64,000 nt of DNA, from assembly GCF_004349105.1 (NCBI RefSeq), contig NZ_SMLB01000008.1, positions 1-64,000 of the forward strand. Direction: 5' to 3'. Numbering within the stretch: position 1 is the stretch's first letter; each line of letters opens with the position of its first letter. This stretch comes from Jiangella aurantiaca (GTDB lineage Bacteria; Actinomycetota; Actinomycetes; Jiangellales; Jiangellaceae). This document shows, one piece after another, positions 44,371-55,401 of the stretch. The translations under genes and the position numbers were made by a program. Under the pieces are notes generated by a model. That model was not told the DNA's origin, did no database searches, and was given only the letters and a program-made list of their open reading frames with translations.

Positions 44371-45018
44371 GTGCGTGCCCTACGACTGGCCGCAGCCGGC
44401 GCCGGGGCGCTCGTGTTGAGCGTCGTCCCGCTGTCCGCGCAGGCACAACAGCAGCTGTCCGAACAGGACCAGGCCTTCCTCGTGCAGGCCCACCAGAACA
44501 ACCTGGCCGAGATCGCCGCCGGTGAAGCTGCGGTGAACCAGGCGGCGACCGAGCTGGTCCGCGCCCAAGGTCAGATGCTGATCACCGACCACACCACGCT
44601 CGACGAGTCCGTGCGCCATGTCGCCGACGCTCACGGCGTCGAGCTGCCAGCCGAGCCGACCGCGGAGCAGCAGGCCCAACTGGCCGAGGTCACCGCCCAG
44701 CAGGGCGCCGCGTTCGACCAGGCGTGGACGCAGCTGCAGATCGCCGGCCACCAGGCCGCCCTCGCGTTGGGCGAGCAGGAGATCCAGAACGGCAGCAACG
44801 CGGAGGTCATCGCGCTGGCCGAGAACGCCGCCCCGGTCATCCAGAAGCACCTCACGATGCTCGAGTCCGGGGAGGCCCCCGCACCGGACGGCGTCAATGC
44901 CGGCACCGGCGGGCAGGCCGCCTGGCAGAACGGCGCCGGGCCGTTGCCGTGGATCGTGGCCGGCTGCGGTCTGGTCGTCATCGCCGTCAGCGTGGCCGCG
45001 TTGCGCCGCCGAGCATGA
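44371..45018 (+). CDS. DUF4142 exported protein with C-terminal membrane anchor
   Basis: This 215-residue protein has a signal peptide (VVPLSAQAQ cleavage region) and a four-helix DUF4142 bundle (QDQAFLVQAHQNNLAEIAAG, LITDHTTLDESVRHVADAHG, HQAALALGEQEIQNG). The C-terminal hydrophobic helix LPWIVAGCGLVVIAVSVAA ends in LRRRA. This hydrophobic-plus-basic tail resembles a cell-wall sorting signal, but no LPxTG is present. The GTG at 44371 is the only start giving a signal peptide. Its stop overlaps the sortase start (ATGA). Confidence 0.85.
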   Translation: MRALRLAAAGAGALVLSVVPLSAQAQQQLSEQDQAFLVQAHQNNLAEIAAGEAAVNQAATELVRAQGQMLITDHTTLDESVRHVADAHGVELPAEPTAEQQAQLAEVTAQQGAAFDQAWTQLQIAGHQAALALGEQEIQNGSNAEVIALAENAAPVIQKHLTMLESGEAPAPDGVNAGTGGQAAWQNGAGPLPWIVAGCGLVVIAVSVAALRRRA

Positions 45019-45713
45019 CCCGCCACCCCGGCCGGGTCGACGCTCGGCGGGTCGTTGCCGCGGGCGGGCTCGCGCTGGGGACCACGCTGCTGGCCGTCGC
45101 GGCGAACCTCGCCGCGACGGCCGATCCGGTTCCTGACGGCGACACGCCGACGGTGGGCGCGGACACGGCAGATCTCGGCACACGTGCGGGCCGCACCGCC
45201 GCCGCGGCCGCTGAGGCGGCGTCATCGGGTCCGACGGCGACCCGGCCGGTCGCCTCGCCCACGCCGCGGGCCGCAAGCGCCGCACCCGTGCGACTGTCGC
45301 TGCTGGGCCAGGATGTCCCGTTGGAACCGGTCGGCATCCTGGCCGACGGCAGCATGGAGCTCCCGCGGACCCCGGACGCCGGCGGCTGGTGGGCACCCGG
45401 ACCGGCGCCCGGCAGCCCGTCCGGGACCGTCGTCATCGCCGGTCACGTCGACACCGCCGAACACGGCGCCGGGATCTTCGCCGAACTGGCCTCGATACCG
45501 CCGAAGACACCGATCACCGTCACGACCGCGGACGGGCGCGTCCACCACTACGTCGTCATCGGTCTGAGCCGTCATGACAAGGACGGTCTCCCGGCCGGCC
45601 TGTTCACCAGCACCGGCCCCCCACGGCTCGCGCTCATCACCTGCACCGGCGCCTTCGACCCCGACGCAGGCGGCTACCAGCAGAATCTCATCGTCATCGC
45701 CGAGTCCAGCTGA
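45015..45713 (+). CDS. Class F-like sortase
   Basis: This 232-residue membrane-anchored protein has an N-terminal hydrophobic helix (VVAAGGLALGTTLLAVAANL), an Ala/Thr/Pro linker and a sortase beta barrel. Catalytic His144 is in GTVVIAGHVDT and Cys210 in LALITCTG. The length and GHVDT/TCTG context match class F sortases of actinobacteria. The usual Arg near the C-terminus is not obvious: the region reads GYQQNLIVIAE. Overlap with the DUF4142 gene suggests that protein is its partner or substrate. Confidence 0.85.
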   Translation: MTRHPGRVDARRVVAAGGLALGTTLLAVAANLAATADPVPDGDTPTVGADTADLGTRAGRTAAAAAEAASSGPTATRPVASPTPRAASAAPVRLSLLGQDVPLEPVGILADGSMELPRTPDAGGWWAPGPAPGSPSGTVVIAGHVDTAEHGAGIFAELASIPPKTPITVTTADGRVHHYVVIGLSRHDKDGLPAGLFTSTGPPRLALITCTGAFDPDAGGYQQNLIVIAESS

Positions 45714-45957
45714 GCTCAGACCCCACCACTCATCGATGGCGGCGGGTCAGGGGGCCGGAGGACCAGCCGTCGCCTCGGATTCGTGGAGGTGCTGTTGTCG
45801 TCGCCGGATGCGGGCAACGGCTAGGTGACGCGATCCGGAGCGACGGAGGAGCCGTCATGAGGCGATCGTGCGGCAACTCGCACCACAAGAGGCACCACGA
45901 CGCGACATGCTGCACTAGCGTGCGGCAAAGAGCACGCTCTGAGCTGGGCGAACTGTG

Positions 45958-46031
45958 TAGGGCGGGTGGGACTCGAACCCACGACCCAGGGATTATGAGT
46001 CCCCTGCTCTAACCGGCTGAGCTACCGCCCC
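45958..46031 (-). tRNA. tRNA with CAT anticodon (elongator Met or Ile2)
   Basis: This 74-nt cloverleaf reads on the minus strand: acceptor GGGGCGG paired with CCGCCCT (one G-U), D-arm GCTC/GAGC, anticodon stem GGGGA/TCCCT with loop CTCATAA (anticodon CAT), and T-arm GTGGG/CCCAC with TTCGAGT. No CCA is encoded. Both elongator Met and lysidine-modified Ile2 tRNAs share this anticodon, and I cannot separate them. Its 3' half is the apparent integration target repeated at 35181-35224 and 33252-33776. Confidence 0.95.
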
Positions 46032-46119
46032 GGGAGCGGCGAGCGAACTGCTCGCGCCCGAGAACCTTACCTCGACGGCGGCGTGGCACCGGCCACCCGG
46101 ACCGGCTGACGGGGACAGG

Positions 46120-46154
46120 CGGACGCCCCGGGGCTGCGGTCCCCGGGGCGTCCG
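46120..46154 (-). terminator. Terminator after the cupredoxin gene
   Basis: A perfect 14-bp stem (CGGACGCCCCGGGG and its complement) with the 7-nt loop CTGCGGT starts 12 nt beyond the stop of the minus-strand gene ending at 46166. Confidence 0.8.
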
Positions 46155-46165
46155 TGGTCATCCTC

Positions 46166-49100
46166 CTAGTGGTGTCCGGCGTGGTGCGCGGGCGCGTCCT
46201 CGGCGGACGGCTCGGCGGCCGCCGACGAGCTGGCCTTCGCCGCGGCCGGCTCGGCGGGCGGCGTCGTGCCGACGTCGGACGCGGCCGCGGTGCGGGTCAG
46301 CATGCCCCGCTCCCGGCTGGTGATGACGCCCTCGGCGACCAGCTCGTTCGCGACCTCGGTGACGTGCCGGACGAACGCGCCGTGGTTCGGCCACTCGCCC
46401 TCGTCGTCGATGAGGTCGTTGATCGTGCAGCCGTCGCCGCTGTCGACGTTGGCCACGAGCGAGTCGAGGTCGCCGATGACCACCGTCGGGCGGGTGTCGG
46501 AGTCGGGGCAGGCGTCGCCGTCGCGCTCGACGACGGTGAACGTCACCGCACCCACCTCCGACGCGTTGCCCGCGTTGTCCGTCGCCCGGTACCGGACGGT
46601 GTGCTCGCCGACGGACGAGACGACGACCGGCCCGGTGTACGGCACGAACGCGCCGTCATCGAGCGAGTAGACCACCGACGCCACGCCGGACTGGGTGTCC
46701 GTCGCGGTGACGGTCACGGTCGCCGAGTCGACGTACGCACCGTCCGGGTTCTGCTCGCCGGACACCGTCCCGGCCACCGCCGGCGGCGTGGTGTCGTCCG
46801 GCTCCGGCGCGACCACGGCGAACGTGACGGACTCGACCGGCGCGACGTTGCCGGCGTTGTCCGTCGCCCGGTACTGCACCGTGTGGGTGCCGACGGCAGA
46901 GACGACGACCGGTGCGGTGTAGGCCACGAACCCGGCGCCGTCCAGGTTGTACTCGATCGACGCCACGCCGGACTGGGTGTCCGACGCGGTGACGGTCACC
47001 GTCGCCGATCCGATGTAGTCGCCCGCGGGGTTCTGCGATCCCGCGACCGACGCCGACGTGTCCGGCGCGGTGGTGTCGTCGGGCTCCGGCTCGACGACGG
47101 CGAAGGCCACCGACTCGACCGGCGAGGTGTTGCCGGCGTTGTCGGTCGCGCGGTACTGGACGACGTGGTCGCCGGTGGCGGTCACGACGACCGGTGCGGT
47201 GTACGGCTGGAACGAGCCGCCGTCCAGCGCGTAGGCGATCGAGGCGACGCCTGACCCCGCGTCCGACGCCGTCACCGTGACGGTCGCCGACCCGACGTAC
47301 TCGCCGTCCTCGTTCTGGTCACCGGCCACGGCCGCGGACACGTCCGGCGGGGTCGTGTCGTCGGGTTCCGGCTCGACGACGGTGAACGACACCGACTCGA
47401 CCGGTGCGACGTTGCCCGCGTTATCGGTCGCGCGGTACTGCACCGTGTGGTCGCCGAACGCGGTCACCACCAGCGGCGCCGTGTACGCCGTGAAGCCTGC
47501 CCCGTCGAGGTTGTACTCCACCGACGCCACGCCCGAGCCCGCATCGGTCGCGGTCACCGTGACGGTCGCGGACCCGACGTAGTCGCCGTCCTCGTTCTGG
47601 TCACCTGCCACCGCGGCGGACACGTCCGGCGGGGTGGTGTCGTCGGGTTCCGGCTCGACGACGGTGAACTGCACCGACTCGACCGGCGAGGTGTTGCCGG
47701 CGTTGTCCGTGGCGCGGTACTGCACGGTGTGGTCGCCCAGCGCCGTCACGACCACGGGGGCCGTGTACGGCTGGAACGCGCCGCCGTCCAGCGCGTAGGC
47801 GATCGAGGCGACGCCCGACTCCGCGTCGGTGGCGGTGATCGTCACGGTCGCCGACGCCACGTAGTCGCCCTCGTCGTTCTGCTCGCCGGTCACGGCCGCC
47901 GAGACGTCCGGCGGCGTCGTGTCGTCCGGCTCCGGCTCGACGACGGTGAACTGCACCGACTCCACGGGCGCCAGGTTCCCGGCGTTGTCGGTCGCGCGGA
48001 ACTGGACGACGTGGTCGCCGACCGACGAGACCACCACCGGCGCGGTGTACGCGGCGAACGCGGCTCCGTTCAGGCTGTACTCGACCGACGCGACACCCGA
48101 GCCCGCATCGGACGCGCTGATCGTCACCGTGGCCGACCCGACGTAGTCGCCCTCGGGGTTCTGGTCACCAGAGACCGCGGCGGAGATGTCCGGCGGGGTG
48201 GTGTCGTCCGGCTCCGGCTCGACGACGGTGAACGACACCGACTCGACCGGCGCCACGTTCCCGGCGTTGTCCGTCGCCCGGTACTGCACCGTGTGCGTGC
48301 CGATCGCCGTCACCTGGACCGGCGCCGTGTAGGGCTGGTACGCGCCGCCGTCCAGCGCGTACTCCACCGACGCGACCCCGGACTCCGCGTCCGTCGCCGT
48401 GACGGTCACCGTCGCCGAGCCGACGTAGTTGCCCTCGTCGTCGCGCTCGCCGGCCACCGACGCGGAGATGTCCGGCGGGGTTGTGTCCTCCGGCTCCGGC
48501 TCGACGACGGTGAACGACACCGACTCCACCGGCGCCACGTTCCCGGCGTTGTCCGTCGCCCGGTACTGCACCGTGTGCGTGCCGATCGCCGTCACCTGCA
48601 GCGGTGCGGCGTACGCCTGCCAGCCGCCGTTGTCCAGGTTGTACTCGACGGTGTCGACGCCCGACCCGCTGTCGGTCGCGCTGACCGTGACGGTGGCCGA
48701 GCCGATGTAGTCGCCCTCGGCGTTCTGATCGCCCGCCACGGACGCGGACACGTCCGGCGGGGTGGTGTCCTCGGCGCCGCTGACGACCAGTAGGCCGGTC
48801 ATCGAGCCGTGGCCGGGGAACGCGCAGAAGTACCGGTAGACACCGGGGGTGAGAGTGACCTCTGCCTGGTGGCGCCCACCGTTCGCGTCGAACGGGTTCG
48901 CGGTGATGTCGAGGTTCACGTCCTGGTTGTACTGCGGGTCGCTGGTGTCGAACGTCAGCGTGTGCGGCATGCCGCTGGTGTTGCCGGTGGCCACGCTGTT
49001 CTCGAAGACGATCGTCGTCGGCCCGGCGACCGCCGTGGCCGGCGCCGACGCGTATGCCGTCACGCTGTTGTTGGCGGTCCAGGTCAGCGTCTGCGCGGCC

Positions 49101-49336
49101 GCGGTCTCGGCCGCCTCCGCGCCCGCGTCCGCCGAAGCCGCGGATGAAGCCTGCGACGGCGTCGACGCGGCCGCCGGCGCGCCGCGCAGGGCGGCGGCCG
49201 CCGGCACGAGGCCGACCGCCATGAGGGCCACGGTCAGCACCGCGACGACGACGCCCTGGGGCGTCACCCGCCGGCGGCCGGACCGGCCCGTCGAGGGATG
49301 GCGGCCGGTGAGGTCCGCCCAGAGTCGTTGAAGCAT
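46166..49336 (-). CDS. Secreted cupredoxin with eight Ig-like repeats
   Basis: This 1056-residue exported protein has a signal or anchor helix near 27-50. A blue-copper domain (about 82-186) has copper ligands His in MPHTLTF and Cys, His and Met in YFCAFPGHGSM. Eight near-identical Ig-like (OmpL47-type) repeats of about 88 residues follow, each starting DTTPPDxSA and ending VESVxFTVVEPEP. The C-terminal module, DGCTINDLIDDEGEWPNHG and on, recurs in the next gene upstream. A His-rich tail (APAHHAGHH) could bind metal. ATG 49336 has AGAGG 10 nt upstream; GTG 49348 is an alternative. A plausible role is extracellular electron carriage on a stalk. Confidence 0.85.
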   Translation of the reverse strand: MLQRLWADLTGRHPSTGRSGRRRVTPQGVVVAVLTVALMAVGLVPAAAALRGAPAAASTPSQASSAASADAGAEAAETAAAQTLTWTANNSVTAYASAPATAVAGPTTIVFENSVATGNTSGMPHTLTFDTSDPQYNQDVNLDITANPFDANGGRHQAEVTLTPGVYRYFCAFPGHGSMTGLLVVSGAEDTTPPDVSASVAGDQNAEGDYIGSATVTVSATDSGSGVDTVEYNLDNGGWQAYAAPLQVTAIGTHTVQYRATDNAGNVAPVESVSFTVVEPEPEDTTPPDISASVAGERDDEGNYVGSATVTVTATDAESGVASVEYALDGGAYQPYTAPVQVTAIGTHTVQYRATDNAGNVAPVESVSFTVVEPEPDDTTPPDISAAVSGDQNPEGDYVGSATVTISASDAGSGVASVEYSLNGAAFAAYTAPVVVSSVGDHVVQFRATDNAGNLAPVESVQFTVVEPEPDDTTPPDVSAAVTGEQNDEGDYVASATVTITATDAESGVASIAYALDGGAFQPYTAPVVVTALGDHTVQYRATDNAGNTSPVESVQFTVVEPEPDDTTPPDVSAAVAGDQNEDGDYVGSATVTVTATDAGSGVASVEYNLDGAGFTAYTAPLVVTAFGDHTVQYRATDNAGNVAPVESVSFTVVEPEPDDTTPPDVSAAVAGDQNEDGEYVGSATVTVTASDAGSGVASIAYALDGGSFQPYTAPVVVTATGDHVVQYRATDNAGNTSPVESVAFAVVEPEPDDTTAPDTSASVAGSQNPAGDYIGSATVTVTASDTQSGVASIEYNLDGAGFVAYTAPVVVSAVGTHTVQYRATDNAGNVAPVESVTFAVVAPEPDDTTPPAVAGTVSGEQNPDGAYVDSATVTVTATDTQSGVASVVYSLDDGAFVPYTGPVVVSSVGEHTVRYRATDNAGNASEVGAVTFTVVERDGDACPDSDTRPTVVIGDLDSLVANVDSGDGCTINDLIDDEGEWPNHGAFVRHVTEVANELVAEGVITSRERGMLTRTAAASDVGTTPPAEPAAAKASSSAAAEPSAEDAPAHHAGHH

Positions 49337-49379
49337 CAAGTGCCGCACCTCTTTCGTGAATCCGCGAGACGCCGAGCGT

Positions 49380-49402
49380 CCCGGCGGCCGAGGCCCGCCG
49401 GG
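49380..49402 (-). terminator. Hairpin after the 1367-residue gene
   Basis: An 8-bp stem (CCCGGCGG/CCGCCGGG) with a 7-nt loop begins 3 nt past the stop at 49405. It separates, probably incompletely, the large dehydrogenase gene from the cupredoxin gene downstream. Confidence 0.55.
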
Positions 49403-49404
49403 TC

Positions 49405-52400
49405 CTACAGCTCCCGGACTCGGATGTTGCGGAACTCGATCAGGTCGTTGTTGCCGTGGTTCTGCAACCCGATGTATCCGCTGAGGAACTGCCGCAGGTC
49501 GGTCGGCGGGTCACCCGCACGAGACGACTGCTTGCCGGGCGTGTTGTCGAACTCGTTGATCACCACGCCGTTGCGGATGATCGTGTAGTGCTGACCCTCG
49601 ACCCGGATCTCGTAGTCGTTCCACTCGCCCTTGGGCGTGGCGCCGGAGCCGGGCAGCGCGATCGGGTCGAAGTTGTAGACCGACCCGGTCTTCTGCGGTT
49701 CGCCGGTGGTGCCGTCGTAGATCTGGATCTCCTGGCCGCAGTAGATCGCGACCCAGGCCGGCGACGTCGCCGCGGCGCCGATCCGGCCGCACTCGGGCCG
49801 CTCCGCCAGCGGGGTGTTCGGGTTCGGGAACCGGATGAACACACCACTGTTGGCCCGGGTGTTGCCGGCGGAGACGTCGCGGAACTGCAGCCGGACGGAG
49901 TAGTCGGCGAACTCCCGTTCGGCGTACCAGAGCATGCCCAGTCCGCCGCGGCTGATGATCGTCCCGTCGTCCTGCAGCTCGAAGAAGCCGCCCGGCGCCT
50001 GGGACCACCCCTCGAGGGACTCGGCGGTCCCGTCGAAGATGGCGTCCCAGCCGGTGTCGCCCGGCGTGCCGATCTCGGACGCCGCGGCCAGCCGGGTCAG
50101 CGTCGCCTTCTCGCGCGCCGTGATGACACCGTCCGCCGCCAGGCCGTTCGCGGTGTCGGTGACGTGCCGGACGAACTGGCCGTGGTTCGGCCAGCTGCTC
50201 TCGTCGTCGATGAGGTCGTTGATGGTGCAGCCCTCGCCGACGACGTCGTTCGCCACGCCGGTGTCGGTGTCGCGCAGCCAGACGGTGTCGCGGTCGTCCG
50301 GCACGGCGCACCCGACGGTGACGTCGATCTCGGTGGTCATGGTCTCGCCGTCCGCGTACGTGACGGTGAGCGTCGCGGTGTAGGTGCCCACCGCGCCGTA
50401 GGTGTGCCGCGGGTTGGCCTCGTCAGACGTCCCGCCGTCGCCGAAGTCCCACGCGTAGGACACGCCGCCGGAGCGGGCGCCGGTGAAGGCGATGGTCAGC
50501 GGCTTGTTCTGCACGGCCGTCGCCGACGCCGTGGCCACGGGGGTGGCCGGGCCGCCGTTGTAGACGACGCGGATCAGCTTCTGGTTGGGCGTGAGGCTGA
50601 AGAAGCCGCTGCTGTAGTCGGACATGTACAGCGCGCCGTCCGGACCGAACCGCGAGGTCATCATCCAGCTCTGCAGCCGGTCGTTCGCTCCGCCCTGCGG
50701 GATGATCGACAGCAGACTCTCCGCGAACAGCGGCGGGGCCTGTTCCTCTATGCCCTCGGGGTCGACGGTGACGGCGACCCGGTTGTTGGCGCCGCACTCG
50801 TCACCGAGGATCCACTTGCCCTCCCAGTAGGACGGCCACGAGATCTCGCTGTCCGGGTCGACCAGCGACTCACGGAACGTCGGCCCCGTCATGATGGCCT
50901 GGCAGCCACCACGCAGGTACGGGAACGTGTACTCGGCGGTCGCGTTGGTGTACGTCGGGATGCCGTTGCCACGGTCCGGGAAGACCGGGTTACCGCCGCT
51001 CGGCGAGTACCAGATCATGTTGTCGCGGGCGTCCGGGATGTCCACCAGGCCGGTGTTGCGCGGCGAGGTGTTCAGCAGGTTGCCCTTGCAGTCGTACCAG
51101 CCGGTGAACACCGACGCGTCGGTGTTGCTGCGATCGCGGTACGGCTGCCGGTTGCCCATGCAGAACGGCCAGCCCTGATTGCCTGCCGACGTGATGATCG
51201 TCGCCGTCTCGTACTTCGCCGGGCCCAGGTCCGGGCTCGGGTTGGAGGCGTCCGGGCCGACCCACGCGGCGTGCAGATAGTCCGTCACCGGGTCGACGTA
51301 GAGGGTCGAGATGTTGCGCACGCCCATGACGTAGATCTCCGGGCGGGTCTTGCCGCCGCCCTCCTCCTGACCGGTGAACAGGTTGCCCTCGGGAATGGTG
51401 TACGTGCCGTCGGGCTCCGGGTGGATCCGCAGGATCTTGCCGTTCAGGTCGTTCGTGTTGCCCGACGTGCGGCGGGCGTCCTGGAACGAGATGCCGGCGA
51501 ACTCGCGGGTCCAGTCGTTGCCCGAGTAGCCGCGCAGCGGGCTCCCCGAAGGGGCGGTGTTCTCCGACGAGTTGCTGTCGCCGACGCCGATGTACAGGTT
51601 GCCCTCGGAGTCGAAGTCCATGCCGCCGCCGGCGTGGCAGCAGCTGTGGATCTGGGTCTCCCAGGACAGCAGGTCCTTGCGGCTGTCGAGGTCGATCTCC
51701 GCGGTCTCGTGGTCGTACGTGAACCGCGACACCGTCCGATCGCCGACGCGGCGCACCTTGTCGATCGACTCGTACGGCATCCAGTAGACGTACATCCAGC
51801 CGTTGTCCATGAAGGCCGGGTCGAGCGCGATGCCGACCAGACCCTCCTCGGTCTTGATCAGCTCGCCGCCGCTGCCGCGGTTGCCGAAGACGTCGAGCGA
51901 GGTCAGCTGCTTCACATCACCCGTCTCCGGGTCCCACTGGTGGATCGTGCCGCAGCCGCGGCCGACGTTCGGGTTCTCCCACGGGACGACGGGACCGGTG
52001 GCGCAGGACGCCTTGCCGATGTAGAAGACGGTGCCGTCGGCGGCGACGTCCAGGCCGTGCGGCTCGCCGTTCTGGTCCAGCTGGCCGGGCTGGTTGGGTG
52101 CCGACAGGCGCTCGATGTCGTAGTTGGCGCCGATGGTGGCCTGGCAGTCGCCGCGCACGAGGCCGGTGGTCCACTGCAGCGCGCCGGTCAGGTGACTGCG
52201 GAACTCCGCCTCGGACCAGCTCTCCGCCGTGCCGCCCATGCCGGTGTAGAAAGAGCGGCCGCCGTCGTAGTCACGGCACCACGACACCGGGTGGAACGCG
52301 CCGTTCGCGCCGTCACCGGGGTCGTAGGTGTGCTCCTGCACCTGCGCGACGGTGTGCACCGTGCCGACCGGGTTCGGCGACCAATTGGTCCAGCGGTCGG

Positions 52401-53508
52401 TGAGGGTCAGCGTCAGCGGCAGGCCGTCGTTGGCCGGGTGCTGGCGGTCGACGATGCTGACCGTCGCCTCCTGCGGCTGCACCGGCTCGGGCTCGACGAC
52501 CTCGCCGGCGAACAGCTGCCACTCGGCCAGCTGGGTGATGCTGTCGCCGGAGTTGCGGGTGATGTCGAGCCGGAAGTACTCGTAGGCCGTGGTGTTCTCG
52601 AACGTGTACGCCTTGGTCTGGAACCGCTCCGGGAAGTCCTCGTTGGTGCGCCGGTCCAGGTCGGTCCAGGTCGTCCCGTCGTTCGAGCCCTGCAGCGTCC
52701 AGTCCTGCGGGTCGCGGCCGGCGGCGTCGTTGGCCGACGCCAGCGCGTACTGGTTCACCGCGGCCGGCGCGGTGAGCCGCACGGTGATCTGCGCCGTCCG
52801 CACGAAGCCGAGCCACTTGGTGTTGACGTCGCCGTCGACGACCTTGGGCGCGTCCTCGTTCGGCGGGTTGTTCGCGGTGGCGCTGACGGAGGCGACGTCG
52901 AGCGGGTCCGGCAGCGCGCCGACCGGCCGGGTGCCGATCAGCCCGGTGAACCACTCCGACCGCTCCTGCGCCCGCGACGCGTCGCCGATGCCGAGGAAGC
53001 CGCCGCCGTCCTCGATGTAGGCCTCGAGCGCGTCCTCCTGCGACGGCGTCAGCTCGGTGCCCATCGCGGACAGGAAGACGACGCCCCGGTACGCGCCGAG
53101 CGTCTCGGGGGAGAAGCTTGCCGGGTCGGAGGACACGTCGACGCCGATGCCGTTCGCGGCGCCCAGCTCCTGGATCGCCGCGACGGCCGCCGCGACCGGG
53201 TCGTCCTGCTCCTCGGCCGGGCCGTGGAAGACCAGCACCTTGACGGCACCGTCGGCGTTGTTCGCCTTCGCCGCGGTCAGGGCCTGACGGGTGGCCGGGC
53301 TGGCGCTGTCGGCGGCCTCGGGGGACTTCGCGGCCGGCGCGCTCGAGGCGCTGGCCGAGGGTTCGGGCGGCTCCGGCTGCCCCTGCGCGGGCAGCGCGCT
53401 CACGCTGAGCGCCAGGACCGCCGTACTCGCCAGGACGAACGTCCGGCGCCACCGTGCGGATCTCGCCGGTGGTCCTCCCTCCGGACGGACGAGGCTGGTG
53501 CGTCTCAT
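49405..53508 (-). CDS. Secreted ThuA/discoidin/sugar dehydrogenase/PKD/DUF1080 protein
   Basis: This 1367-residue exported protein has a signal peptide ending near SALPAQG. Residues 88-200 are the first half of a ThuA domain (VKVLVFHGP, GGGFLGIGDASRAQERSEWF). A discoidin domain (about 207-335) is inserted, and ThuA resumes at 347-455. A glucose/sorbosone-dehydrogenase beta propeller covers about 465-980 (EPHGLDVAADG, IHSCCHAGGGMDF), then PKD (YAWDFGDGGTS), the TINDLIDDESSWPNHG module shared with the next gene, and a DUF1080 domain (about 1165-1367). DUF1080 proteins include 3-keto-glycoside hydrolases, and the propeller type oxidises sugars using PQQ. A combined role in extracellular glycoside oxidation and cleavage is likely. 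Confidence 0.85.
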   Translation of the reverse strand: MRRTSLVRPEGGPPARSARWRRTFVLASTAVLALSVSALPAQGQPEPPEPSASASSAPAAKSPEAADSASPATRQALTAAKANNADGAVKVLVFHGPAEEQDDPVAAAVAAIQELGAANGIGVDVSSDPASFSPETLGAYRGVVFLSAMGTELTPSQEDALEAYIEDGGGFLGIGDASRAQERSEWFTGLIGTRPVGALPDPLDVASVSATANNPPNEDAPKVVDGDVNTKWLGFVRTAQITVRLTAPAAVNQYALASANDAAGRDPQDWTLQGSNDGTTWTDLDRRTNEDFPERFQTKAYTFENTTAYEYFRLDITRNSGDSITQLAEWQLFAGEVVEPEPVQPQEATVSIVDRQHPANDGLPLTLTLTDRWTNWSPNPVGTVHTVAQVQEHTYDPGDGANGAFHPVSWCRDYDGGRSFYTGMGGTAESWSEAEFRSHLTGALQWTTGLVRGDCQATIGANYDIERLSAPNQPGQLDQNGEPHGLDVAADGTVFYIGKASCATGPVVPWENPNVGRGCGTIHQWDPETGDVKQLTSLDVFGNRGSGGELIKTEEGLVGIALDPAFMDNGWMYVYWMPYESIDKVRRVGDRTVSRFTYDHETAEIDLDSRKDLLSWETQIHSCCHAGGGMDFDSEGNLYIGVGDSNSSENTAPSGSPLRGYSGNDWTREFAGISFQDARRTSGNTNDLNGKILRIHPEPDGTYTIPEGNLFTGQEEGGGKTRPEIYVMGVRNISTLYVDPVTDYLHAAWVGPDASNPSPDLGPAKYETATIITSAGNQGWPFCMGNRQPYRDRSNTDASVFTGWYDCKGNLLNTSPRNTGLVDIPDARDNMIWYSPSGGNPVFPDRGNGIPTYTNATAEYTFPYLRGGCQAIMTGPTFRESLVDPDSEISWPSYWEGKWILGDECGANNRVAVTVDPEGIEEQAPPLFAESLLSIIPQGGANDRLQSWMMTSRFGPDGALYMSDYSSGFFSLTPNQKLIRVVYNGGPATPVATASATAVQNKPLTIAFTGARSGGVSYAWDFGDGGTSDEANPRHTYGAVGTYTATLTVTYADGETMTTEIDVTVGCAVPDDRDTVWLRDTDTGVANDVVGEGCTINDLIDDESSWPNHGQFVRHVTDTANGLAADGVITAREKATLTRLAAASEIGTPGDTGWDAIFDGTAESLEGWSQAPGGFFELQDDGTIISRGGLGMLWYAEREFADYSVRLQFRDVSAGNTRANSGVFIRFPNPNTPLAERPECGRIGAAATSPAWVAIYCGQEIQIYDGTTGEPQKTGSVYNFDPIALPGSGATPKGEWNDYEIRVEGQHYTIIRNGVVINEFDNTPGKQSSRAGDPPTDLRQFLSGYIGLQNHGNNDLIEFRNIRVREL

Positions 53509-53620
53509 CGTTGCTCCTTCGATCGATGTGCGCTCGTGCCTGTGCGTTCTCGGCCCTGATGGGTGTCAGTGGTGGTGCGGGCGCTCGCCGCGGCCTGGGC
53601 CTCGCGGTCGGCCTCGGGGG

Positions 53621-54670
53621 CTAGCCCCCGTGGCCCGAATGTCCTACGTGTCCTCCGTGTCCTGCGTGGTAGCGGTCGATGGCCTCCTGTGCGTGGTCGG
53701 GGATGCTGCCGTCCTCGTTGCGGACCAGGAAGACGCCGGACATGCCGCCGTCGGAGTGGAACTGCACGTGGCAGTGGTACATCCACGCGCCAGGGCCGAC
53801 ACCTTCGCCGGCGATCACCTGGAACCCGAACGAGCTGCCGGGGTTGAGGTCCTTGTTGTCGACGGCCAGGGTGGGGTCGTTGGGGCCGTCGAGGTAACCG
53901 GTCCGGTTGTCGGCCCACCGATGGGCGTGCAGGTGGAAGGTGTGATCCACGCTGCCGTGGCCGATGCACAGCCACTCGACCCGCTCGCCCAGGACGGCGT
54001 CGAACATCGGCGTCTCGGGCGCCATCTTGTTGTTGATCGTCATGTCGTTGAACACGACGACGAACGTCTTGTCCGGCAGCACGTCGCCCTTGCGGCGGAC
54101 GATGAGACCGCCGTACAGGCCCTTCTGGAGGCCCTGGGTGCCGTGGTCGCCGTAGGCGTGGTCGTGGTAGTGCCAGTAGCCCGCGCTGCCCGGCAGCCAC
54201 GCCCGCCCGGCGCTCGTGGTGCGCTCGCGGGTGTGCCACACGTACGTGCGCGTCTCGCCCGGCTCGTTGAAGGAGTCGTTGAACGCGGAGCCGTCGGAGA
54301 AGACGTCGTAGTCGACGCCGTGCGGGTGGATCGAGAGCCGCTGGTTGGTGGTGTTGACCAGCGTGATCTCCAGCGTGTCGCCCTCGACGATCTCCAGCAG
54401 CGGGCCGGGGATGGTCGCCTCGCCCGGCGCCAGTCCGTAGCCGTACAGGCCACCGGGCAGCGCCTCGGCGTACATCGTCACGCGGTGGGTGGTGCCAGTG
54501 GCCCGGGCGGTGCGCAGCCCGGGAACGGCGGCGGAGCTCGGTGTCGCGAGAGCAGCGGTGGAGCCGGCGGCAACGGCGGGGAGTGCAGCCGCTCCCGCGA
54601 CCGCGCCGGCCAGCACCGATCGGCGGGTGAGGTGCCCTAACCAGCCGCGTCGGACGGGGTTGTCAGCCAT
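53621..54670 (-). CDS. Small laccase (multicopper oxidase), Tat-exported
   Basis: This 349-residue protein has a twin-arginine signal (HLTRRSVLAGAVAGAAAL). Its size matches the two-domain small laccases of streptomycetes, which work as trimers. All copper ligands are visible: HPHG (115-118), HYHDH (167-171), HTFHLH (243-248) and HCH...H...M (299-310). The His-rich tail (GHGGHVGHSGHGG) may help copper loading. It oxidises phenols or other donors with O2. It is the first of three minus-strand secreted redox genes. A GC palindrome (CGGGGGCTAGCCCCCG) at its stop may weaken read-through into the next gene. Confidence 0.92.
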   Translation of the reverse strand: MADNPVRRGWLGHLTRRSVLAGAVAGAAALPAVAAGSTAALATPSSAAVPGLRTARATGTTHRVTMYAEALPGGLYGYGLAPGEATIPGPLLEIVEGDTLEITLVNTTNQRLSIHPHGVDYDVFSDGSAFNDSFNEPGETRTYVWHTRERTTSAGRAWLPGSAGYWHYHDHAYGDHGTQGLQKGLYGGLIVRRKGDVLPDKTFVVVFNDMTINNKMAPETPMFDAVLGERVEWLCIGHGSVDHTFHLHAHRWADNRTGYLDGPNDPTLAVDNKDLNPGSSFGFQVIAGEGVGPGAWMYHCHVQFHSDGGMSGVFLVRNEDGSIPDHAQEAIDRYHAGHGGHVGHSGHGG

Positions 54671-55401
54671 GGGGTCTCCATTCCGTGAGTCCCGGGGCGC
54701 CTGCACCGGAGACCGGGGATCGGGCGGACACCACCGCAGGGCATGGACGACCCCCGACGGTCGCTGATCCGAACCGACCCGTACATGGGACCGCACAGTA
54801 AAGGGGCTTTTGCATGCACGTCAACGGAAAGTTTCACGTTCGTCGGCAAATGCTCGCTTGGTAACGCTTCGAGTCGACCGCGTTCCAGATCCGATTCGAC
54901 CGAAAAGACGCAGGTGCCGCCTCTGGCGGAGTTCCGTGCAGACGTATCCCGCCTCGGGTGGGTGGGCCGCCGTCCCTGGCGCTACTTAGGTCGCCGGACG
55001 GAGGACTTTTGCAAGTTACCGCAAGGTAACGGTTGTGTCAGGAGCGAGCGCCTCGATAGCGTCCAGTCGTCAGTGGTGTGGGTCACCGCAGGGCAGGGCC
55101 GAGCCTGTGGCACGACAGCACGGACGAGCGCACGCCGGCGGGCCGCCACGGCCGCCGGTCGACGTCGTTCGTCCGAGGTGAGGTGGTCACATGCACCGGT
55201 ACGCGCATACGTCACCGGGCCCTGCTCCGGCCACCCGCCCGCCACCGACTCGTCCGCCGCCCACCCGTCGATCGCGGGCCCGACGATGGCATCGTCGCCG
55301 GTGAGCGCCATGATCCGCGCCAGCCGCGGAGCGCGTCGCCGGCCGTACCGCAGCCGGCCGGCGAGGCGACACCTCGGGGCGACAGCGCCACCGGGTGCTC
55401 G
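54671..55401. other. Long upstream region of the laccase gene
   Basis: This 731-bp interval has no supported gene. It should contain the laccase promoter. The GTTACC...GGTAAC palindrome at 55014-55029 is the only clear structure. Confidence 0.5.
55014..55029. promoter_or_regulatory. Palindrome GTTACCGCAAGGTAAC
   Basis: A perfect 6-bp inverted repeat around GCAA looks like a binding site for a dimeric regulator such as a TetR-type protein. It is about 345 nt upstream of the laccase start, so its target is uncertain. Confidence 0.4.

Follow-up and report, generated by a model that had tools for sequence, protein, structure and literature searches.

Within a 64,000-nucleotide stretch of Jiangella aurantiaca (contig NZ_SMLB01000008.1, positions 1 to 64,000; hereafter the window), three neighbouring genes at 46166-54670 encode secreted-type proteins: a small laccase, a multidomain dehydrogenase built around a GSDH propeller, and a cupredoxin carried on a repeat stalk. 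In Streptomyces the small laccase usually has this neighbourhood, and the trio reaches far wider than one window. The parts each come from a known family; their near-constant, widespread combination around a much-used enzyme is new here. We are highly confident that the three genes are linked as a functional unit.

We propose that the trio codes for a single secreted redox unit. Its GSDH propeller, with pyrroloquinoline quinone (PQQ) or another cofactor, would oxidise a glycoside, probably to a 3-keto-glycoside, which the DUF1080 domain would then cleave. The cupredoxin, on a repeat stalk of variable length, would take the electrons, and the small laccase would pass them from the cupredoxin to O2. 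We give the full chain, from sugar through propeller and cupredoxin to laccase and O2, about an even chance: the direction of electron flow, a contact between cupredoxin and laccase, the C3 regiochemistry, the substrate, and the cofactor are all putative. A more specific version, which we put forward only tentatively, would make the Streptomyces-type small laccase the terminal oxidase of an extracellular sugar respiration, in which a GSDH with a non-canonical cofactor site would feed the stalked cupredoxin, the laccase, and finally O2, with DUF1080 splitting the keto-glycoside for uptake. If true, this would extend the 3-keto-glycoside pathway to secreted Gram-positive enzymes and to a copper carrier.

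A sequence-only reading of the window had already proposed an extracellular oxidation chain. Joint action of the trio is strongly supported, because the linkage holds in eleven named genera and DUF1080 occurs on different partners; more weakly, it is supported by a paralogous chain of GSDH, DUF1080, and a distant cupredoxin. The direction of the electrons, PQQ as cofactor, and the substrate stay putative. In the open-access literature (subscription papers fell mostly outside the scope) we found no description of a named laccase-dehydrogenase-cupredoxin system, though one may be in print.

Linkage of the three genes

The arrangement is kept in all twelve genomes searched in the genus, that of the window included, and is therefore not a matter of chance. 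Across the order, 16 of 22 genomes have a laccase match; the ThuA-GSDH gene adjoins it in all sixteen, and the cupredoxin comes next in fifteen. The exception is G001, where the contig ends within the DUF1080 domain and the cupredoxin starts another contig. No laccase match was found at E ≤ 1e-20 in six of the 22 genomes, two of which are less than 90 per cent complete.

Co-occurrence of the trio elsewhere had been named beforehand as the check on the proposal, and the trio passed it. Among 393 genomes of the class, matches to the laccase (E ≤ 1e-60) and to the cupredoxin (E ≤ 1e-12) fall in an identical set of 48. Layouts were read at all 48 loci (our own plus the fetched surroundings of the other 47); the three genes are contiguous in 46 genomes, the exceptions being G001 and G037, and laccase and GSDH in 47. 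The cupredoxin has diverged in two genomes, G082 and G096 (about 43 per cent identity). A search of 376 genomes across the phylum found the cupredoxin in eight, all of the same class, and none outside it.

We also scanned named genomes with a cupredoxin alignment and examined the best 80 of 162 related stretches; these loci overlap partly with the class genomes, and the counts are not additive. Apart from metagenome-assembled genomes, the best 80 span eleven named genera: Jiangella, Streptomyces, Asanoa, Georgenia, Actinoplanes, Prauserella, Virgisporangium, Micromonospora, Paractinoplanes, Actinokineospora, and Couchioplanes. Laccase, GSDH, and cupredoxin were all found in 78 of them, and DUF1080 in all 80. 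Both exceptions lie near contig ends: in L187 the cupredoxin is 211 bases from the end, and in L210 the laccase match stops 375 bases short of it. The layouts vary, with all three genes co-directional, the laccase divergent, laccase and GSDH divergent from the cupredoxin, or the cupredoxin first. The domains vary too. In the usual Streptomyces layout DUF1080 is part of the cupredoxin protein or, in L156 and L169, lies in a frame with that protein's repeats; it belongs to the GSDH protein in Jiangella, in the other co-directional loci, and in L150 and L162, two Streptomyces loci of divergent layout, and to both proteins in Asanoa. The partners thus stay together regardless of gene order, direction, and domain distribution. 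In the laccase tree, the laccases beside the cupredoxin in Asanoa (L143) and Micromonospora phytophila (L210) lie apart on a long branch of their own (1.08 changes per column); a distant laccase therefore seems to occupy the same place.

Within Streptomyces, 179 genomes were searched. A laccase was found in 114 genomes and a cupredoxin in 109, with both in 108, laccase only in six, cupredoxin only in one, and neither in 64. Of the 108 genomes with both, 107 have the two matches on one contig, with starts 3063-4057 bases apart; in G846 they lie on two contigs. The cupredoxin-only genome has the GSDH gene, and a contig edge falls where the laccase would be. A single fused GSDH-cupredoxin open reading frame (ORF), suggested by tblastn in Streptomyces, was ruled out, as the frames show two ORFs.

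Seven ORFs flanking the trio were searched for in the relatives' loci; three matched, in the genus only, and none of the seven is a further constant neighbour. Distance-matrix correlations over 124 loci (laccase-GSDH 0.92, laccase-cupredoxin 0.81, GSDH-cupredoxin 0.77) are uncorrected for relatedness and were not used as evidence; a Fisher p-value for the Streptomyces counts was set aside for the same reason.

Composition and metal sites

The domain content assigned in the sequence-only reading was borne out for all three proteins. The laccase, read there as a multicopper oxidase, carries the Pfam domains Cu-oxidase_3 and Cu-oxidase_2 within about 350 residues, and its top PDB matches are two-domain laccases (best 3t9w, a small laccase, E 3.8e-119). 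Thirteen His, Cys, and Met positions in the motifs HPH, WHYHDH, HTFHLH, and HCHxxxHxxxxM, which we take to be the type-1 and trinuclear copper sites, are unchanged in all 27 aligned sequences. The protein has a twin-arginine-like signal (LTRRSVLAGA) and, like the cupredoxin protein of the window, ends in a His-rich tail. By its length, its two Cu-oxidase domains, and its copper-motif residues it belongs with the small two-domain laccases such as SLAC/SCO6712 and EpoA of Streptomyces. SCO6712 is the small laccase (PMC3918160), an enzyme also used on electrodes (PMC9692349). The literature excerpts on these laccases treat the enzyme alone; they mention no GSDH or cupredoxin neighbours and name no natural electron donor. 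With a near-constant pair of partners, the question of that donor becomes directly testable.

The cupredoxin protein has the blue-copper domain and eight-repeat stalk claimed for it, the latter as OmpL47-type repeats (NCBIfam). Copper-bind scores 23.2 bits on the whole protein (cut-off 21.2) and 28.5 on the domain alone. His, Cys, His, and Met at H49, C95, H100, and M103, presumably the type-1 copper ligands, are unchanged in all 26 aligned sequences and lie in the Copper-bind domain, as expected of a type-1 cupredoxin.

In the dehydrogenase, Pfam finds ThuA, F5_F8_type_C, GSDH, PKD, and 3keto-disac_hyd; the discoidin domain interrupts ThuA, a feature that the earlier reading had missed. The GSDH part belongs to the six-bladed propellers of PF07995. 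Its AlphaFold2 model (predicted local distance difference test, pLDDT, 71.8; predicted template modelling score 0.81) best matches sugar dehydrogenases: 3a9g (Z 30.6, root-mean-square deviation 2.7, 334 residues aligned), 2ism (Z 29.1), and 3das (Z 27.9). It also resembles HHIP (Z 23.8), which is not known to contain PQQ. The active-site His and Arg-Asn motifs align with the known chains and are unchanged in 27 of 27 sequences; we take them to correspond to H144, R228, and N229 of the sGDH active site. Directly before the presumed catalytic His stands a vicinal Cys-Cys pair (HSCCHAGGG, 51622-51648, protein positions 166-174), again in 27 of 27. In methanol dehydrogenase a vicinal disulfide lies over PQQ, and the Cys-Cys pair may be convergent with it. 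A CC before a His also occurs in the GSDH paralogues L228 and L231.

Both large proteins share a domain of about 80 residues that we call NHG, likewise missed by the earlier reading. It has no convincing Pfam or NCBIfam family (the best weak match, E 0.0022, is far below the cut-off and was judged chance). Its model (pLDDT 85.2) has two short strands followed by three helices, and a Foldseek comparison with the PDB returned no match at E ≤ 0.001. NHG has 13 matches in the genome of the window, also on other GSDH proteins, on a peptidase S15 protein, and on one protein with no Pfam match. Because it also sits on such other proteins, it is a general accessory domain and no proof of partnership.

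Keto-glycoside chemistry and paralogous loci

The DUF1080 domain of the dehydrogenase scores 122.6 bits against PF06439, well above the cut-off of 26.8. Its suggested role, cleavage of the keto-glycoside formed, agrees with published family members: the available excerpts name BT2157, a member of the DUF1080 family, as a 3-ketotrehalose hydrolase (PMC9007349).

The genome of the window holds 13 ThuA and 19 GSDH matches, and two of these paralogues bear on the chemistry. One protein has ThuA, GSDH, and NHG fused to an AP_endonuc_2 TIM barrel, a family to which the 3-keto-glycoside eliminase may belong. That eliminase is given, in excerpts, as a TIM-barrel putative sugar phosphate isomerase, and a Gfo oxidoreductase is proposed there for 3-keto-glucose (PMC10628242). 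The second paralogue (contig C80, 60.1-64.7 kb; L250, 6122-10671) carries GSDH, a pair of DUF1080 domains, a cupredoxin, and NHG. It is encoded by two ORFs with a four-base overlap, and a solute-binding protein and a permease come after them. A 469-residue query spanning its DUF1080 and cupredoxin domains found it in 14 of 22 genomes of the family. Its open frame has 847 residues in our genome and 1522-1616 in the 13 others, where the query aligns nearly end to end at 77-92 per cent identity; the split may be a sequencing error or real. In all six fetched paralogues, GSDH and two DUF1080 domains share a single ORF (by Pfam in five, by tblastn and the ORF list in L269), and the motif YYVYCTPH was seen in four paralogues. 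ROK and GFO_IDH_MocA genes lie nearby in L271. The paralogue thus joins a GSDH-type dehydrogenase and DUF1080 to a cupredoxin, though a distant one and without a laccase.

Taken together, the paralogue neighbours, BT2157, and the TIM-barrel eliminase make 3-keto-glycoside chemistry our best guess, by association, for this GSDH clade. The proposed unit shares with the described pathway (LacABC or GlycDH with DUF1080 or a TIM-barrel eliminase; excerpts of PMC9007349 and PMC10628242) the placing of DUF1080 after sugar oxidation, and import and GFO_IDH_MocA genes are also found near the paralogous locus of the family. It differs from that pathway in having a GSDH propeller in place of LacABC or GlycDH, together with a cupredoxin and a laccase.

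PQQ alcohol dehydrogenases hand electrons to azurin, and a transfer from dehydrogenase to cupredoxin would be common to that system and the chain proposed here. The propeller family is different, however, and the proposed end is a laccase rather than a respiratory oxidase.

Weighing the chain

Several observations weigh against the proposed chain, and they concern its cofactor, its gene linkage, the substrates of the laccase, and the paralogues. The GSDH of the window does not keep the C-terminal Arg-x-Arg, which is presumed to hold PQQ, and has RLQSWMMTSRFGPDG instead. Arg-x-Arg is present in five PDB chains and in the C22 protein of the same genome. Seventeen GSDH loci were found in that genome, 12 with a readable C-terminal motif: Arg-x-Arg is in place in one (C22) and absent from eleven, among which L219, L222, and L229 keep one Arg (the first place) and L231 carries an RLR, though three residues upstream. 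TIGR03606 scores 36.3 bits on the window GSDH, far below its curated cut-off of 434.55. In the class search PqqC matched 15 of 393 genomes, ten above the cut-off, with 14 control genomes silent; just 5 of the 48 locus genomes have it above the cut-off. None of these is in the genus of the window, in a search that covered PqqC alone among the pqq genes. Since the search does detect PqqC elsewhere, its absence from our genome carries weight. With Arg-x-Arg not kept and PqqC rare, PQQ is possible only if most genomes take it up from outside; otherwise the cofactor differs.

The label of a PQQ-type dehydrogenase given in the sequence-only reading fits the fold and the His and Arg-Asn motifs; its weak points are Arg-x-Arg and the rarity of PqqC. 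We do not class the window GSDH as PQQ-dependent, and its cofactor may be PQQ or another. Compared with the soluble PQQ sugar dehydrogenases (sGDH and Asd; PDB 1c9u, 3das, 3a9g), it has the same propeller fold and the same two motifs, but it lacks the C-terminal Arg-x-Arg and adds the invariant Cys-Cys and the ThuA, PKD, and DUF1080 domains.

As for linkage, no GSDH was seen by the cupredoxin of G037, which has two laccases next to it at the edge of a contig; a third laccase of that genome stands alone (L061). The extra copies at L090 and L101 are pairs of laccases with a cupredoxin but no GSDH, and the one at L102 is a lone laccase. Six of the 114 laccase-bearing Streptomyces have neither GSDH nor cupredoxin in the fetched stretches, two of which are shorter than 15 kb. 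The laccase tree nests these six among the linked laccases in three places, with two as single long branches of unsure position. On the simplest reading of the tree, the partners were lost or the laccase moved. It follows from the nesting that the laccase can persist alone, which speaks against a strict dependence on its partners.

The laccase also has other substrates. Of 23 phenolic substrates tested with the small laccase, 12 were oxidised, including caffeic acid, ferulic acid, and quercetin (excerpts of PMC3918160). These activities fit a rival in which radicals and quinones, made by the laccase from phenols or lignin fragments, are re-reduced by GSDH with electrons from sugar. Electrons would then enter the laccase from phenols, and the cupredoxin would act as a mediator or serve another acceptor. 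Such quinone cycling between dehydrogenase and laccase is known in fungi, and the linkage data fit it equally well. It needs no cupredoxin, yet the cupredoxin adjoins the laccase even where no GSDH is seen (L089, L090, L101), and we consider it unlikely, if one of the two main rivals, the other being copper supply (below).

The paralogues speak against the chain in part. Copper-bind is above the cut-off in our own paralogue and in L268, falls just short of it in L267 (20.3 against 21.2), and has no listed match in L270, L271, or L272. At E ≤ 1e-3 the window cupredoxin matches none of the seven paralogue stretches, its counterpart there being distant, and no laccase match was found in these stretches of 12-19 kb. 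With no laccase match nearby, the electron acceptor of the paralogue must be something else. This leads to a further rival, in which another acceptor, such as a lytic polysaccharide monooxygenase, is fed by the dehydrogenase and cupredoxin, and any excess of electrons or O2 is removed by the laccase. AA12 dehydrogenases are reported to feed lytic polysaccharide monooxygenases, and the GSDH model appears, from its structural match, to share their fold. In its favour, the paralogue pairs GSDH with a cupredoxin in seven stretches free of laccase matches; against it, the seven flanking ORFs yielded no further constant neighbour, in a search that was not directed at monooxygenase genes. We regard this rival as very improbable.

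Upstream regions and copper

Copper supply is the other main rival. Here the cupredoxin protein, with its His-rich tail, would store copper and deliver it to the laccase, and the unit would be mainly a copper-response locus. In its favour are the His-rich tails on both proteins and a link to CsoR: excerpts give CsoR as the putative repressor of SCO6710, described there as a glycosyl hydrolase (PMC6414726). The cupredoxin-DUF1080 gene is probably SCO6710, to judge by how the locus is ordered in S. coelicoflavus (L173) and other relatives. The cupredoxin nevertheless keeps a full type-1 site, which is typical of electron carriers, and copper supply leaves GSDH and DUF1080 unexplained. A CsoR-like palindrome was found in none of 90 divergent and none of 35 co-directional upstream regions, a weak test given a crude pattern and contigs that were in some cases counted twice. 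On balance copper supply seems to us rather improbable, and we return to the proposed electron chain as our preferred reading.

Other upstream elements are candidates from the sequence. The palindrome GAAACTTTC, next to TTGACG 5' of the laccase, recurs in the genus relatives L025 and L035 and may be a regulatory element. GAAAN1-2TTTC occurs in 14 of 36 co-directional upstream regions. In the divergent laccase-ThuA region of Streptomyces, 73 of 83 loci share a block of strong conservation that contains GGACAAAGTT, with some contigs counted twice. A second block, GACAACGATGTC, in 63 of the 83 regions, was dropped as probably coding, since it lies close to the laccase match.

Features of the locus

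Coordinates are collected in Table 1. The gaps between the genes are 112 bases (laccase to GSDH) and 56 bases (GSDH to cupredoxin); with gaps this short, an operon of the three is likely. The laccase ATG at 54670 is preceded by GGAGACCCC.

Table 1. Genes, domains, and candidate elements of the laccase locus in the window.
Feature	Position	Strand	Basis or remark
Two-domain small laccase (SLAC type)	53621..54670	-	349 aa; Pfam, PDB match, copper motifs
Multidomain dehydrogenase, ThuA/F5_8C/ThuA/GSDH/PKD/NHG/DUF1080, secreted-type, 1367 aa	49405..53508	-	Pfam
Cupredoxin on OmpL47-repeat stalk, with NHG domain and His-rich C-terminus, 1060 aa	46166..49348	-	Pfam, NCBIfam
ThuA, first half (domain split by discoidin insert)	52894..53253	-	Pfam
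F5/8 type C (discoidin) domain within ThuA	52504..52893	-	Pfam; related to GH92 mannosidase domains, PDB 7nsn
ThuA, second half	52144..52503	-	Pfam
GSDH beta-propeller with HSCCHAGGG and GVRN motifs	50554..52143	-	Pfam; 27-sequence alignment; AlphaFold2 model
PKD domain of dehydrogenase	50305..50553	-	Pfam
NHG domain (CTINDLIDDE.WPNHG.FVRHV), dehydrogenase copy	50065..50304	-	Sequence comparison
DUF1080 / 3-keto-disaccharide hydrolase domain of dehydrogenase	49408..50064	-	PF06439, E 2.6e-35 (whole protein)
Cupredoxin domain, His/Cys/His/Met type-1 site	48773..49108	-	Residues 26/26; Copper-bind 28.5 bits
Eight OmpL47-type Ig-like repeats of cupredoxin protein	46559..48772	-	NCBIfam NF047446, 8 stretches
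NHG domain, cupredoxin-protein copy	46304..46558	-	Sequence comparison
Palindrome GAAACTTTC running into TTGACG, candidate operator/-35 5' of laccase	54819..54835	-	By eye; genus relatives L025, L035

The dehydrogenase is a single frame in those relatives of the order that have it, with the L036 copy cut by a contig end. Scanning 45500-55200 for promoters and terminators yielded none of the former and a single terminator-like site that did not rise above shuffled sequence. Directly downstream of the unit, at 44371-45713, a sortase-domain ORF overlaps a DUF4142 protein (both by Pfam); the searched loci of the relatives gave no match to either at E ≤ 1e-8.

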